In this document: piece after piece, positions 4,008 through 47,174 of the stretch | Layout of the letters: every line of letters begins with the position of its first letter | How positions within the stretch are numbered: the first letter of the stretch is position 1 | IMG/VR virus record: IMGVR_UViG_3300044977_000069 | Location: 1-47,507 of that record | Origin: a virus | DNA length: 47,507 nucleotides | Reading direction: 5' to 3' (one strand) | Program-made: the position numbers and the translations under genes | Notes under the pieces: generated by a model | Told to the model about the DNA's origin: nothing | The model's input: the letters and a program-made list of their open reading frames with translations, nothing else | The model's database searches: none

Positions 4008-4931
4008 TCAAAACCCGGGCGTCGCAAACGCACTTCGCCAATCTGCCGGTGTCGGGACGAAACGGGCCGTGCTTTTACTTTTGGCGTTCTCCGTGTCAAA
4101 ATCGGCATCTCTCTCAAGTTCCGGATATCGCCTCCAGATACTCACCAACCCCGTGTTCCTCGGGATGCTGGTCTGCATGAACCACGCCTGGGTGGCTTCG
4201 ACGCCGAAGTATGGATTGCAGATCGCGCCTTCGGGGATCAGGCCCATGTTTTTGATGGCGTTGATGTCGTTGTTGGCCGTGTTCGTGCGGAGCTGGGAGT
4301 TGAGGATGCGCTCGGCGTTGAACATGTCGGCGGCGGAGACGATCAGGCGGCGGGGATGCAGGTTGATCTGCAGGCCGCGGCTGTTCTGCGCGAGATAGAC
4401 GCGCTTGATCATGTCCTCCAGGGAGGCCTCGGAGAGGTCGGCGTTGGTGGTCGGCAGGTTCGATTGCAGCCCGCTCTTGGTCGGGTGGGCGGCGGAGAAC
4501 CAGGGCTGGCCGTCGCCGTACGTCGGGCCGCCGGAGAAACCGTTCAGGAACACGTTGGCGTGGATCAGTTCGATGGTCGTGCGCATCGAGAACGCCAGCG
4601 AGGCGGCGCGGCGGCTGGAGACCTCGGCGTAGAGGTTGTCTTCCATCTCCTCGCGGGTGACCTGGAAACCCAGGGCGATAACGCTGGGGGTGGCGAGGGT
4701 GACATAGCCCTCGGCGTCCGCGTCGTAGGAGATCGGGGCCGATTCCGACTTGGGCCGGGCAAGGCCAAAGCCGGTGGCTTCAACCAGACGCTCGGTGGCC
4801 AGTTCGCCGTCGATCTCCTCGTAGATCTGCGAGAAGACTTCCTCGAACATGTCGTAGGAGAGACCGAACTCCAGAAGCACGCCGGGCCACAGGAAGTCCG
4901 GGTGGTTTGAGCGGGTAATGACGGCGGCCAT
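4008..4931 (-). CDS. Major capsid protein
   Basis: 307 residues, ATG start with AGGAG ten bases upstream. The middle has the pattern of the Mu gpT-like capsid family: IHANVFLNGF, then GDGQPWFSAAHPTKSG, then a long helix SLEDMIKRVYLAQ and the strand INLHPRRLIVSAADM. The N-terminus (FEEVFSQIYEEIDG) and EGYVTLATPSVIALGFQVTREE fit the coat protein fold. The gene lies downstream of scaffold and a probable decoration protein, the usual position for the shell protein. It should be the most abundant virion protein. The gpT family assignment is by eye. Confidence 0.8.
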   Translation of the reverse strand: MAAVITRSNHPDFLWPGVLLEFGLSYDMFEEVFSQIYEEIDGELATERLVEATGFGLARPKSESAPISYDADAEGYVTLATPSVIALGFQVTREEMEDNLYAEVSSRRAASLAFSMRTTIELIHANVFLNGFSGGPTYGDGQPWFSAAHPTKSGLQSNLPTTNADLSEASLEDMIKRVYLAQNSRGLQINLHPRRLIVSAADMFNAERILNSQLRTNTANNDINAIKNMGLIPEGAICNPYFGVEATQAWFMQTSIPRNTGLVSIWRRYPELERDADFDTENAKSKSTARFVPTPADWRSAFATPGF

Positions 4932-36901: not shown

Positions 36902-37227
36902 TCCTTCCGCTCCTCCTCGCGCTTACCGTGAACGGCGCACAGCCGCCCGAGCGCTCGCCCTACCCCTCCGATGTCCCGATGTGGAACATCGCCTTCTGCA
37001 TCGGCTACAACACCGCAGCGGCGGAGAGTTCCGATAGGGTCGACGCGTTCTCGGACGGCCTTGTGCGGGCCGCGCAGGCGGTCAACGACAAGAGCCTGAC
37101 CGACTTCATCCAGGCTGTTGTCGAAACCGCAAAACGGAACATGCCCGTTCCGGAAGTGAGCGGCCACGTCGTTGATGACGATCACAACCTTGTCGCGGAT
37201 TGCACGCCGCAGGATGCGAAGCCATGA
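36898..37227 (+). CDS. Secreted small protein
   Basis: 109 residues from GTG 36898 (GTGA overlap). A short signal-like N-terminus (ILPLLLALTVNGA) is followed by a soluble part with two Cys (FCIGYNTAAAESSDRVDAF, later ADCTPQDAKP). Probably exported to the periplasm. Function unknown. Confidence 0.6.
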   Translation: MILPLLLALTVNGAQPPERSPYPSDVPMWNIAFCIGYNTAAAESSDRVDAFSDGLVRAAQAVNDKSLTDFIQAVVETAKRNMPVPEVSGHVVDDDHNLVADCTPQDAKP

Positions 37228-37568
37228 CCCCTGGCGAAGAGGCAGTCGTATCCATAGTTTCGGGTGTCGGGTTGGCCGTAGCTCTTATAGCGGCTGGCGC
37301 CTGGGGGTATTATGAGGGCTCCTGGCATCAGGCGAAGATCGACGCCCGAGCCACACTCAGCGGCCCTGTAGCGACGACTGCCGGCACTCTCTCATGTTTC
37401 AGCAACATGGCCGAGCCGCCGACAGCGTCCAAATCCCCGCCCGACTGCGTCCCCGGCCACGGCTGCCGCCCATTCCCCGGCCTCGTCCTTCCCGTATGCG
37501 ATAAGGCCAAGGACGTGTGCTGCAAGGCGGGTGACGCGGCGTGCATCAGGGAGTTGCCGAAGCCATGA
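37224..37568 (+). CDS. Anchored Cys-rich protein
   Basis: 114 residues, ATGA overlap. A transmembrane helix (AVVSIVSGVGLAVALIAAG) is followed by a short linker and an external part with many Cys (CFSN, DCVPGHGCRPF, VCDKAKDVCCKAGDAACIR), likely disulfide-bonded in the periplasm. Function unknown. Confidence 0.65.
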   Translation: MTPGEEAVVSIVSGVGLAVALIAAGAWGYYEGSWHQAKIDARATLSGPVATTAGTLSCFSNMAEPPTASKSPPDCVPGHGCRPFPGLVLPVCDKAKDVCCKAGDAACIRELPKP

Positions 37569-37900
37569 GAACCGAAGACATCCCCGCTGACGGCCCATCG
37601 GACTGGCGTCGTGAGCCCTCTGAGCGTCGCAACGCCCTACTCGGCAAGCTGGCAGAGGAGTGCAACGAACTCGCGGGGCGTCTCGTGCGCGCTATGATCC
37701 AGGGGCTGGACGAACTCGACCCTGACGACGGACGTCCAAACCTCATGCACATCCAGGATGAATTCGCGGATGTGACGGCGCTTATGGAGTTGTTCGAGTT
37801 GTACATCGAACTTGATCAGGCGGAGATAATGGCACGTTGGGGCAAAAAGCTACGCTACAAACGCCCGTGGTTTGAGGCTCTTCCGGACGAACGCTCATGA
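37565..37900 (+). CDS. MazG-like nucleotide pyrophosphohydrolase
   Basis: 111 residues, ATGA overlap upstream. LLGKLAEECNELAGRLVRAM and HIQDEFADVTALMELFELYI give the MazG pattern ExxE...ExxD (Glu32, Glu35, Glu66, Asp69). Such enzymes hydrolyse nucleoside triphosphates or (p)ppGpp-like alarmones and help phages in starved hosts. Membrane-directed genes lie on both sides, but this protein is cytoplasmic. Confidence 0.75.
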   Translation: MRTEDIPADGPSDWRREPSERRNALLGKLAEECNELAGRLVRAMIQGLDELDPDDGRPNLMHIQDEFADVTALMELFELYIELDQAEIMARWGKKLRYKRPWFEALPDERS

Positions 37901-38139
37901 CCCGCACCCTCGCCATCATCACCCTCGGCATCGCCCTCGCCGGCTGTCCCCACGCCAGCGGACCGATCTGGCATCCCCTCGACCCCTGCTTCGGCTACAA
38001 GGGGACGGTGGACAGGTGTCTGCACCACCCGACCACGCCGCTGCCGGCCGTACCGGAGCCATCAAGCTGGACGCTCGTCATTCTTGGAGCGGCGATGGTG
38101 GGTGGGGTGATGCGGGCGAGGCGGAGGGTGGTGGCGTGA
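37897..38139 (+). CDS. Small lipoprotein with PEP-CTERM-like tail
   Basis: 80 residues, ATGA overlap. The N-terminus has a lipoprotein signal (TLAIITLGIALAGC, lipobox ALAGC). The middle is Pro/His/Cys-rich. The end reads AVPEPSSWTLVILGAAMVGG then VMRARRRVVA: the PEP motif, a hydrophobic helix and a basic tail that define PEP-CTERM sorting signals recognised by exosortase in certain Gram-negative bacteria. Carrying both a lipobox and a PEP-CTERM tail on an 80-residue phage protein is unusual. It may alter the host surface after infection. Confidence 0.7.
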   Translation: MTRTLAIITLGIALAGCPHASGPIWHPLDPCFGYKGTVDRCLHHPTTPLPAVPEPSSWTLVILGAAMVGGVMRARRRVVA

Positions 38140-38375
38140 GAGGCGATCTACGTTGCATCGAAGGCCGCCTTTATCGGCATGACCCGCAGTATGACGATCC
38201 GGACTTGGAAACCGATGTCGGCGAATGCCCGGATTGCTCTGGGGATGGCTGCGGAGATGATGGGGAGCCAGTTTCAAAGGTGGGTCGCAGCCCTCGATGG
38301 CAGATGGGCGACGTCTATCCTAGACCAAGTGCTCCCGTTTCGGAAGTAGTTGCATACTGGAACAAGAAGTCATGA
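38136..38375 (+). CDS. Unknown small CxxC protein
   Basis: 79 residues, GTG start in a GTGA overlap. VGECPDCSGDGCGDDGEP has a CxxCxGxGC motif like the DnaJ-type zinc repeat, and VVAYWNKKS ends the protein. Function unknown. Confidence 0.6.
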   Translation: MRGDLRCIEGRLYRHDPQYDDPDLETDVGECPDCSGDGCGDDGEPVSKVGRSPRWQMGDVYPRPSAPVSEVVAYWNKKS

Positions 38376-38812
38376 GCGGTTGCGGCTCCATCGAATGCGC
38401 CAACGAGTGCGGCGGAGACTACACTTGGGCCACGTGCCCACATGCGCAAAAGCCTCCTACTTACGACGAACTAGCGGAAACGCTAAGGCCGTTCGCGGAG
38501 GCTGCGGGGGCGATCGATGCAAAGCTGGTTCTGGGTAACGATATCGACCACTGGCAACTTAATTCTCATCAAGCAGCCCTATTGACACTGGGAAACCTTC
38601 GTCGAGCCCGTGCTGCCTTCGACAAGGTGGCGCTCCCCGACCAACTCAAGCTACCTTCCGGTGGAACGTGCGCCTTGTGTGGTGGTGCGCCTGTCAACGA
38701 AAAACACGTGTGCGCGACGTGTCAGGACGAACTCCAATATCGGCTGTACACTGGAGTCGTAGTGACGGAGCCAGATGGAAGCATGTGGGCTGAGATCGAT
38801 CAGTCGGCATGA
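38372..38812 (+). CDS. Unknown protein with CxxC motifs
   Basis: 146 residues, ATGA overlap. The N-terminus SGCGSIECANECGGDYTW and the later GTCALCGGAPVNEKHVCATC suggest two zinc-binding sites. The middle is helical. Function unknown. Confidence 0.6.
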   Translation: MSGCGSIECANECGGDYTWATCPHAQKPPTYDELAETLRPFAEAAGAIDAKLVLGNDIDHWQLNSHQAALLTLGNLRRARAAFDKVALPDQLKLPSGGTCALCGGAPVNEKHVCATCQDELQYRLYTGVVVTEPDGSMWAEIDQSA

Positions 38813-40975: not shown

Positions 40976-41196
40976 CAATGGCCTCGGTCAAGACATCCGA
41001 TTGCACCGCCTGCGCGAACCTCCGGACACATCCGAATCCCTCGCAGCCATTCCACCATTGGAAATGCGCAAAGTACGGACTGTGCGTCGGGACGACCGTA
41101 TTGAAGTGCGAGGGATTCAGGAGGCGCACAACCGGCGAATGTCCTCCCAAGGCTGACGCGCAGGCGTTCGTGTGGTCTCCGGCGATTCCAGATTAA
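40972..41196 (+). CDS. Small Cys-rich protein, end of rightward operon
   Basis: 74 residues, ATGA overlap. ASVKTSDCTACANLRTH and HHWKCAKYGLCVG with a further CEGF and ECPP: five or more Cys that could bind metal. Its TAA and that of the convergent gene overlap as TTAA. Function unknown. Confidence 0.6.
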   Translation: MTMASVKTSDCTACANLRTHPNPSQPFHHWKCAKYGLCVGTTVLKCEGFRRRTTGECPPKADAQAFVWSPAIPD

Positions 41197-41570
41197 CGCG
41201 CCTCGCCATTCGCGATGTTCGGATAGAATGCGTCATCTGTAGGGAAGTGAGAGCCAGGAAACGCCTTGCTCCATAGCATGGAGTTTATGCGAAGTTGCCA
41301 CGCAAGGCTCTTATTTGAATCGTCTATGCTGGCGCGAAGTTGCGTATCGATTTCCGTTTGTTTGTCTTCGATCTTGGTGATCTGAACACGATCGGCCGCT
41401 ACCTGCGTCTCTAGGGCAGATATCCTCGCCGATAGGCTCGCCACATCCTTCGCCGCCCCAATCGCCGTGGCATACAGCACGAACAGAGAGCCGATCAGCG
41501 CCAGGGCCAGCGTGCCAATGCCAGCCCATGCGCTCCAGCGTGCGGTTCCGTTGCCGTTGCCCTCAGCCAT
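41193..41570 (-). CDS. Membrane-anchored coiled-coil protein
   Basis: 125 residues. N-terminal transmembrane helix (AGIGTLALALIGSLFVLYA), then a coiled coil (VASLSARISALETQVAADRV). The layout resembles i-spanin or accessory lysis proteins, but no partner o-spanin is identified. Overlaps the rightward gene end by four bases at TTAA. Function unknown. Confidence 0.55.
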   Translation of the reverse strand: MAEGNGNGTARWSAWAGIGTLALALIGSLFVLYATAIGAAKDVASLSARISALETQVAADRVQITKIEDKQTEIDTQLRASIDDSNKSLAWQLRINSMLWSKAFPGSHFPTDDAFYPNIANGEAR

Positions 41571-44921: not shown

Positions 44922-47174
44922 TTATGGGACCGCCGTGCCGGTGCAGCCTGTAGCCTGCGGCACACCGGGGACGGTGGGGTAGAAACTATTGCCGATGAAA
45001 CCCGCAATCGTTGGGCCGCCGAGGTAGCCGGTCAGCAGGTTGATGTTGCCATTACCCCCGGCCGCGGGGTCGCCGCTGCCGAAGTTGGCGCTGCCGAGCG
45101 AGAACAGGCCGATCTGCACCGCCGTGCCTCCGGAATAGGTCAGCGTCGAACTGCTTATGGCATAGCTCGTATTGCTCGTCACGCTCACGACGTACGCGCC
45201 TGTGTCCACGCCGTTGACGTATATTTCACCCCCTTCGATGTTGCCTGAAGCTGACGTGCTCGGAGCCGTGGTCCACGTGATGACGCCGCTTGCAATCGAA
45301 GCGTTGAAGGTTTGGCCATTGTTGATGAAGAAGCCAGGATCGGGTGCGCCGAAACATCCTCCAGCTCCAGTCGGATCGATGTAGTTGTTCAGGGCCTCGA
45401 ACGAACCATAGGTGATATAAGAGATCGACTCCGGACCGGCCGAATTGTTGTACGCGTACTGCGCCACCAGCGTGTCCCCCGAGACTGGACTCGACAGCGT
45501 TCCGCAACTGCCAGCGCTGTTCGGAGGTGGGCAAAGAGTGAACGTCGTCCGCGTCCCGCTTTGCAGGATCGTAGTGTTGGCAGGAATGGCGCTGGGGTTT
45601 GTGCGGTCAAGCAAGACAAAGCCTAGACCCGTACAGGAACCTTTCGGCACGGGAGGGCCGGGAATGGTAATGGAACTTGTCGCCGTGACGGTTGGATTGG
45701 CTCCGGAGTTCACGCTTCCGGTAAATACGACCTGGCAGTTTGTATCGGTGAGTGAGTTATTTCCAAGGTACGTGTTGTTGTCGAAGATGGCTTTAGTGAA
45801 AGCAGCTCCGTGAGGAGCCCCAGCAGTTTGATCCTCGCAGGCCGAGTTTATGTTATTCGCCATCCAGGTCAGGGGGTTGCAGACATTGAAACTTATGTCC
45901 GACAAAGGAAGGGTCAGGCGATGCCCAATGATCTGCTCTTCCAATTCCCCGTGCGCAGCTTGGACCGTCCCCGCATAGTTGGCGTGACCGGCGGTGATCA
46001 CATCGACGTAATTGTAATACGTCTTGAAGAAGTCGACTGCGCCCGGAGCATCAGCGGTCGCGGTGAATGGACGCTGTGTGTTGTGGGTGAAGGCGTTGTA
46101 CGTGATCGTGCGAGAGCCTGCGGTCGACCCATCGGCAAACGCCGTGATGGGCCATGTGCAAGGAGCAGGAACAGCGGCTTGGAAGCAGGCAGTAGATCCG
46201 GGCTGGGCGTTTCCCTCGAACCAGTTGTGCGTGATGATTCTGGTCCAATTTGTCGAGGCCGTTCCCTCGACGTTGATCATGTAGGTGTTGCCGCCGCAGT
46301 CGAACCCGCACCCTATCCCCGTGGCCGTGATCGAGTTCACGGCGAGATAGTTGTCGTGGATGTAGATCAGCAGGGTGGTCGGGGTGAGGCCTCCTGCGGC
46401 GCCCAGAACAATTCCAGCTCCTGCGTGCGTGAGGGACGGAATTCCGGTGACCAGTCGCCCGCTGAAGTCCAGTCCATTCGGCTGGAACACGCAGAGGCTC
46501 CCACAGCCCCCGCCCCCTACGTTCGTCCCGTTGCAGCTGTAGACGTTAGCCCCCCCGCTCGTCGTCCATGTGCATCCGGGTGGCATCTGGCCAAAGCCGG
46601 AGCCGGTTGAGAAGGTCGCGGCGACAGCGACGTCCACCAACGGGCTGGTGGTGATCGGCGTGTTTGCCGGTTCGCTCAGCGTGTTGCTGGAGATCGTGAA
46701 GATATTTCCAGATCCGCCAATAATGTAGGCGTTGGTGTTGACCCCATTCGCATACACCATCGCCCCTTTGAGAGGCGGCCCGCCGGAATATCCTGGGGTG
46801 AGTGTGAGGACCCCGGCTGAGATCGAACCGGTTCCGCTGATCGCGTACTTGGTGGTGTAGGCGATCGGAAAGTCGAATGCCGCGACGTTCCACGGCATCG
46901 GATGGGTTGCGAAGATGGACGGCTGCCCGCTCTGGATCGCTGCCGCAGCGCCAACCGCAAATTGCCCCGGACCGGTGATCCCGGGAGCCCAGAAGGCATC
47001 GGTGAAATCAGCCCCCGCACACCCATCGCTGACGCCGTTGCCATTGACGTAGGACCCGCCCTCCGGACATAGGATCGGCGATGGACCGCTGCCGTGTACG
47101 GGCCATGCCGTCGCACAGCCTGCGGCCGTGAGTCCGGCGAGAACGGCGAGCAGGACCAGCAATCGCTTCAGCAT
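44922..47174 (-). CDS. Large beta-rich lipoprotein
   Basis: 750 residues. ATG 47174 overlaps the previous stop in ATGCTGA. The start is a lipoprotein signal (LKRLLVLLAVLAGLTAAGC, lipobox with Cys20). The rest is Gly/Ser/Thr/Asn-rich and strand-rich, as in beta-helix adhesins and tail proteins, with scattered Cys. Two copies of a module recur (residues 116-176 and 623-683: YANGVNTNAY... and YVNGVDTGAY..., each with ISS-TL). A secreted, lipid-anchored phage protein of this size is unusual; it could be a surface-exclusion factor or a virion protein whose signal-like start is coincidental. Confidence 0.7.
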   Translation of the reverse strand: MLKRLLVLLAVLAGLTAAGCATAWPVHGSGPSPILCPEGGSYVNGNGVSDGCAGADFTDAFWAPGITGPGQFAVGAAAAIQSGQPSIFATHPMPWNVAAFDFPIAYTTKYAISGTGSISAGVLTLTPGYSGGPPLKGAMVYANGVNTNAYIIGGSGNIFTISSNTLSEPANTPITTSPLVDVAVAATFSTGSGFGQMPPGCTWTTSGGANVYSCNGTNVGGGGCGSLCVFQPNGLDFSGRLVTGIPSLTHAGAGIVLGAAGGLTPTTLLIYIHDNYLAVNSITATGIGCGFDCGGNTYMINVEGTASTNWTRIITHNWFEGNAQPGSTACFQAAVPAPCTWPITAFADGSTAGSRTITYNAFTHNTQRPFTATADAPGAVDFFKTYYNYVDVITAGHANYAGTVQAAHGELEEQIIGHRLTLPLSDISFNVCNPLTWMANNINSACEDQTAGAPHGAAFTKAIFDNNTYLGNNSLTDTNCQVVFTGSVNSGANPTVTATSSITIPGPPVPKGSCTGLGFVLLDRTNPSAIPANTTILQSGTRTTFTLCPPPNSAGSCGTLSSPVSGDTLVAQYAYNNSAGPESISYITYGSFEALNNYIDPTGAGGCFGAPDPGFFINNGQTFNASIASGVITWTTAPSTSASGNIEGGEIYVNGVDTGAYVVSVTSNTSYAISSSTLTYSGGTAVQIGLFSLGSANFGSGDPAAGGNGNINLLTGYLGGPTIAGFIGNSFYPTVPGVPQATGCTGTAVP

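Follow-up and report, generated by a model that had tools for sequence, protein, structure and literature searches.

The window analysed here is a whole stretch of 47,507 nucleotides from a 47.5-kb IMG/VR virus record assigned to the Caudoviricetes. It encodes terminase subunits, a portal, a major capsid protein (MCP), an endolysin, DnaB, Erf, RNase H, NinB, and a DNA methyltransferase; neither an integrase nor a repressor is among the protein families listed for it. Downstream of the genes for Erf, YqaJ, and NinB, direct reading reveals a run of plus-strand genes whose stop and start codons overlap by 4 nt (ATGA at 37224, 37565, 37897, and 38372; GTGA at 38136). Inside this run lies the gene of interest, an open reading frame (ORF) at 37897–38139 (+) that encodes an 80-aa phage lipoprotein, MTRTLAIITLGIALAGCPHASGPIWHPLDPCFGYKGTVDRCLHHPTTPLPAVPEPSSWTLVILGAAMVGGVMRARRRVVA, with a lipoprotein signal and a C-terminal PEP-CTERM domain. 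It overlaps both of its neighbors by 4 nt, through ATGA at 37897 upstream and GTGA at 38136 downstream. The upstream neighbor, at 37565–37900 (+), is a MazG-like NTP pyrophosphohydrolase (phrog_4856, E = 1.3e-12 for the body of the protein).

Two cysteine-rich orphans are found near this gene in the operon. The first, at 37224–37568 (+), is a 114-aa protein with ATGA overlaps at both ends, for which sequence and hydropathy predict an N-terminal transmembrane (TM) segment and a cysteine-rich periplasmic part. The second, a 79-aa ORF at 38136–38375 (+), directly follows the PEP-CTERM gene, shares the GTGA overlap with its stop codon, and in turn overlaps the following gene (38372–38812) by ATGA. 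Elsewhere in the window, a 750-aa protein (44922–47174, –) opens with a signal peptide that resembles those of lipoproteins (TAAGC), a feature that seemed unusual in a phage protein of this size.

The 80-aa protein begins with a predicted type II signal peptide, MTRTLAIITLGIALAG followed by Cys17 (37897–37947, +). Its lipobox, L14-A15-G16-C17, is canonical, and Cys17 is the predicted lipidation site; the call was made by scanning the window with the consensus regular expression [LVI][ASTVI][GAS]C alone, and by this consensus the N-terminal signal peptide is of the lipoprotein type. By direct reading, a short ectodomain rich in proline and histidine follows (residues 18–51; 37948–38049, +). It contains two cysteines, C31 (37987–37989) and C41 (38017–38019), which could close a C-x9-C loop through a disulfide. 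The PEP-CTERM domain occupies 38050–38127 (+) according to TIGR02595 and residues 51–76 according to PF07589, and comprises the motif VPEPSSW (V52-P53-E54-P55-S56-S57-W58), a hydrophobic stretch at residues 59–72 approximately (about 38071–38112), and the basic cluster RARRR (R73-A-R-R-R77; 38113–38127). The chain then ends at residue 80 with VVA-COOH, so that Pro-Glu-Pro, TM helix, and basic cluster stand in this order at the extreme C-terminus.

A sequence-only reading of this DNA had described a lipobox combined with a VPEPSS motif, a hydrophobic helix, and an Arg-rich end, which it took to resemble a PEP-CTERM signal. This description is borne out by the regular expression and by the curated profiles, since PF07589 matches the protein with 28.4 bits (gathering cut-off 20.7) and TIGR02595 with 20.9 and 19.2 bits (DNA search and protein search; cut-off 16). 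The PEPxxWA-CTERM model NF035944 aligns over its full length (positions 1–24; E = 1.3e-8) and is a near miss, its 34.6 bits falling 0.4 bits short of the cut-off of 35, with T59 where the model has an alanine. Because the E-values were computed for whole libraries, the chance per model is far smaller than these values state. As a control, an HMM was trained on 77 tails drawn from other loci, most of them belonging to long bacterial proteins, and all ORFs were scanned with it. The tail of the window scored 37.7 bits, against 9.4 bits for the best C-terminal match among background ORFs, taken from related phage and prophage loci (L122–L232). The PEP-CTERM domain of the 80-aa protein is statistically secure, and a chance match is excluded.

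PEP-CTERM proteins and their exosortases (EpsH, Xrt) are known from Gram-negative bacteria (Haft 2006, PMC1569441; TIGR02595, PF07589). In bacteria, the tag routes proteins to the cell surface through this enzyme. PEP-CTERM proteins share with the protein described here a C-terminal VPEPxxW motif, a hydrophobic helix, and an arginine cluster; an N-terminal export signal and little homology beyond the tail are also common to both. Unlike its bacterial counterparts, the present protein is phage-encoded, is only 80 aa long, and carries a lipobox in place of a plain signal peptide. The genetic settings differ as well: in bacteria, most PEP-CTERM genes stand alone as single-gene units preceded by a long intergenic region (Haft 2006, PMC1569441), a common and not a defining trait, whereas the phage gene sits in a packed operon with 4-nt overlaps on both sides, in a phage without an exosortase of its own. 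These overlaps, together with the phage gene set of the record, make host contamination very unlikely.

Other tripartite tags that consist of a motif, a helix, and a basic end, and that serve surface delivery, are MYXO-CTERM with myxosortase and GlyGly-CTERM with rhombosortase, which differ from PEP-CTERM in their motifs and proteases (PMC11980579). For MYXO-CTERM, lipidation has been proposed at a C-terminal cysteine (PMC11980579), whereas the lipobox of the phage protein is N-terminal.

The layout of a lipobox plus a C-terminal TM helix, which the 80-aa protein has, is also that of unimolecular spanins (u-spanins) such as T1 gp11. Read in this way, the protein would be held in the outer membrane by its lipid and in the inner membrane by its helix and would fuse the two at lysis, the PEP motif being incidental. 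The window does encode an Rz-like i-spanin (41193–41570, –; phrog_739, 1.7e-5), and no separate canonical o-spanin lipobox was found beside its gene, for which reason the u-spanin reading is reduced but not dismissed; overall we consider it improbable. Unlike T1 gp11, the 80-aa protein has periplasmic cysteines (C31 and C41), and none of the 58 u-spanins catalogued in PMC6139136 has one. Its ectodomain of about 34 residues is shorter than 62, the shortest summed length reported for two-component spanins in the same paper, a yardstick that was set by two-component systems and not by u-spanins. The gene also lies several kb from the endolysin and Rz genes, on the opposite strand, and in three other records (L018, L107, and L070, see below) a PEP-tailed protein occurs alongside separate Rz/Rz1-like genes. 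Lastly, a PEPxxW motif that matches at profile level would be superfluous in a spanin.

No homologue of the 80-aa protein was found in IMG/VR by pattern and tblastn searches, and INPHARED gave just three weak partial matches (about 30% identity, E = 8). A tblastn search of phages with the consensus tail returned nothing, such short hydrophobic queries having little power, and a concatenated query of the phage PEP proteins found no match in INPHARED. Relatives of the phage itself were recovered through its MCP, in the form of viral contigs whose MCPs are 34–86% identical to that of the window. Whole or large records of seven of them have the structural module in common with the window, but not the region around the PEP-CTERM gene. 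PEP-CTERM matches were absent from 35 MCP-related viral contigs, many of which are fragments. Since these structural-module relatives have neither the region nor a PEP-CTERM match, the gene is a lineage-specific accessory. PEP tails were likewise absent from four records of isolated or named phages, namely Sphingopyxis phage VSN-002, EBPR podovirus 1, Methylophilales phage Venkman, and the first 50 kb of Sphingobium phage Lacusarx.

Pattern scans of IMG/VR returned mostly ordinary bacterial PEP-CTERM proteins of 180–300 aa, which probably come from provirus flanks or non-viral contigs and were left out of the phage proteins. The same scans also gave short PEP-tailed proteins in phage settings, with ectodomains that are unrelated from family to family. 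Four of them, of 134–141 aa, form one family (L018, L063, L335, and L348). The others are proteins of 147 aa (L002), 139 aa (L107), 108 aa (L033, between HNH endonuclease and DNA methyltransferase genes), 97 aa (L070, in a 166-kb record, beside a spanin pair), 79 aa (L036 and L111, from records of 298 kb and 197 kb, with a Dda-like helicase close by), and 75 aa (L299, in a 369-kb record). In the region 10392–11602 of L018, the PEP-CTERM gene is convergent to overlapping Rz/Rz1-like genes, and that of L107 also lies close to Rz1-like genes. In L070, the gene between the spanin pair and the PEP-CTERM gene (4235–4876, +) codes for an exported protein of 213 aa that contains a CxxCH haem-type motif. 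In L299, the gene for the 75-aa protein (805–1035, –) adjoins a second PEP-CTERM gene (1036–1815, –), whose 259-aa product is of the ordinary bacterial type.

Longer proteins of the MHFG PEP-CTERM family, named by NCBI (NF038119), were found here on viral contigs as well (L074: 3311–4003; L019: 4150–4854; and L020), and the L074 contig also carries integrase, primase, and tail-fibre genes. They differ from the 80-aa protein in their length of about 230 aa and their conserved ectodomain. The 80-aa protein reaches 20.9 bits with the family model, against a cut-off of 100, through its tail alone, and is not a member.

A terminase large subunit (TerL) is encoded in the records of L002, L107, L018, L036, L111, L033, and L299, two of which are jumbo phages. 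The phrog_2 model found no TerL in those of L063, L070, L019, L020, L074, L325, and L335, so that these are taken as phages from their context. A search for the L018 family with its N-terminal part only recovered five loci, one of them cut by a contig end; all four complete ones keep the PEP motif and the basic end. Three of these four were already known from the tail scans, so that the search adds one new independent member. The same N-terminus had no match in 401 genomes of the sphingomonad order. A C-x8-10-C pair in the ectodomain is shared by three short phage proteins (those of the window, L299, and L033), which is suggestive, though the sample is small (n = 3). The tail, then, recurs on unrelated small phage proteins, and in one family the homologues retain both PEP motif and basic end. 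Similar tagged proteins in several unrelated phages suggest that phages borrow the host exosortase machine. The gene might instead be a captured fragment of a host gene, or its tail might be there by chance and without function, as the lack of homologues and the absence from phage relatives would allow. We hold this to be very improbable, in view of a tail far above the HMM background, the tight overlaps on both sides of the gene, the same design in unrelated phages, and the conservation of the tail in the L018 family.

Exosortase was found neither in the window nor in 15 further viral records with PEP-CTERM genes, and because the phage brings no such enzyme, processing would need that of the host. 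An exonuclease encoded upstream of the PEP region is 58–64% identical to exonucleases of Paracoccus, Sinorhizobium, Sphingopyxis, and Caulobacter phages, and its relatives in genomes are mostly in alphaproteobacterial prophages. The recombination module thus likely points to an alphaproteobacterial host, as a candidate only. Among 30 alphaproteobacterial genomes, exosortase was present in six, namely in six of the seven sphingomonads and in none of the 23 others. An exosortase-positive sphingomonad is a plausible candidate host. One genome of the sphingomonad order (G373) has exosortase and PEP-CTERM proteins and carries, on contig 1 around position 663337 (L237), a provirus of the window's capsid lineage (MCP 43% and TerS 54% identical). 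This provirus is itself without a PEP-CTERM gene. MCP relatives were found once in 301 sphingomonad-order genomes and twice in 298 genomes of the Microvirga order, and because they occur in both orders the MCP does not fix the host. DUF5131 gave no genome match, tetranucleotide usage was not discriminating, and a class-wide search with NF035944 was uninformative, this 24-position model being too short for per-genome E-values. The best hint of an exosortase in the host is the PEP tail itself, by an argument that is partly circular.

Taken together, these data lead us to regard the gene as probably a phage-made miniature substrate for the host exosortase, whose most likely effect is to alter the envelope of the infected cell. 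In the proposed mechanism, the 80-aa protein would be exported by Sec and lipidated on Cys17 by Lgt and LspA, while its C-terminal helix and RARRR would keep it anchored in the inner membrane, the PEP motif lying at the periplasmic face. The host exosortase (EpsH/Xrt) would then bind it, cleave at the PEP motif, and hand the product on, following the model outlined in Haft 2006 (PMC1569441). The product, a lipopeptide with a possible Cys31–Cys41 loop, would come to lie in the outer envelope of the infected cell or in its exopolysaccharide layer. The envelope could be changed by display of this lipopeptide, for example in superinfection exclusion, or by loading of the exosortase, with displacement of host PEP-CTERM proteins. 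Across phages only the tail recurs and the ectodomains differ, and we therefore give display and exosortase loading about equal weight. The idea that a phage could exploit host exosortase stands in part: a true PEP-CTERM tail on a phage lipoprotein, in a phage without exosortase, speaks for it, on the presumption that the actual host has the enzyme.

Phages are known to block reinfection with small lipoproteins. Within the preferred reading, display of the processed lipopeptide may serve superinfection exclusion, for which exosortase would supply the outward route (model in PMC1569441). As the specific role of this protein we rate it as doubtful. A lysogenic role is unlikely because neither an integrase nor a repressor is among the families listed for the window, though lytic phages exclude too. 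The other use within the same reading makes the tail the putative active part of a decoy or inhibitor, which would load or block the host exosortase and leave host PEP-CTERM adhesins and matrix proteins undelivered, easing access or release of the phage. It would account for ectodomains that are unrelated across phage families and often tiny (75–80 aa for the whole protein in the window, L036, and L299), with only the tail in common. Host PEP-CTERM proteins bear the same motif, so that no special affinity can be read from the tail by itself, and the L018 and MHFG families have longer conserved ectodomains, which suggests that in them this part is important as well; a decoy is in our view possible, if on the unlikely side.

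The open-licence literature on exosortase or PEP-CTERM with phage yielded no account of an exosortase substrate encoded by a phage, which agrees with the sequence-only reading, to which no such phage system was known. The combination of a lipobox with PEP-CTERM was likewise not described in the portions of the literature available. Among cellular genes transferred to viruses, a paper on hot-spring viruses includes genes of the TIGR03118 family, with a putative exosortase interaction domain (PMC11003980). Nor is annotation wholly without phage-borne PEP-CTERM proteins, since NCBI names the MHFG family, found here on viral contigs. PEP-CTERM and exosortase are already known; the new part would be a phage-encoded, lipobox-bearing miniature substrate.

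More generally, and with less than even confidence, it is hypothesized that unrelated phages, jumbo phages included, have repeatedly evolved small secreted proteins with an exosortase tail, which enter or block the host pathway and thereby change the cell surface or matrix. If this is true, such tail-bearing proteins would constitute a class of phage–host interaction not previously described. In environmental bacteria, biofilm matrix and surface proteins are built through exosortase sorting. Phage substrates would reveal C-terminal surface sorting as a process on which phages act, a route for which no paper on phages was found. If the pathway is blocked, such phage proteins would be natural exosortase competitors. 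Small phage substrates would also be compact natural probes of the exosortase pathway.
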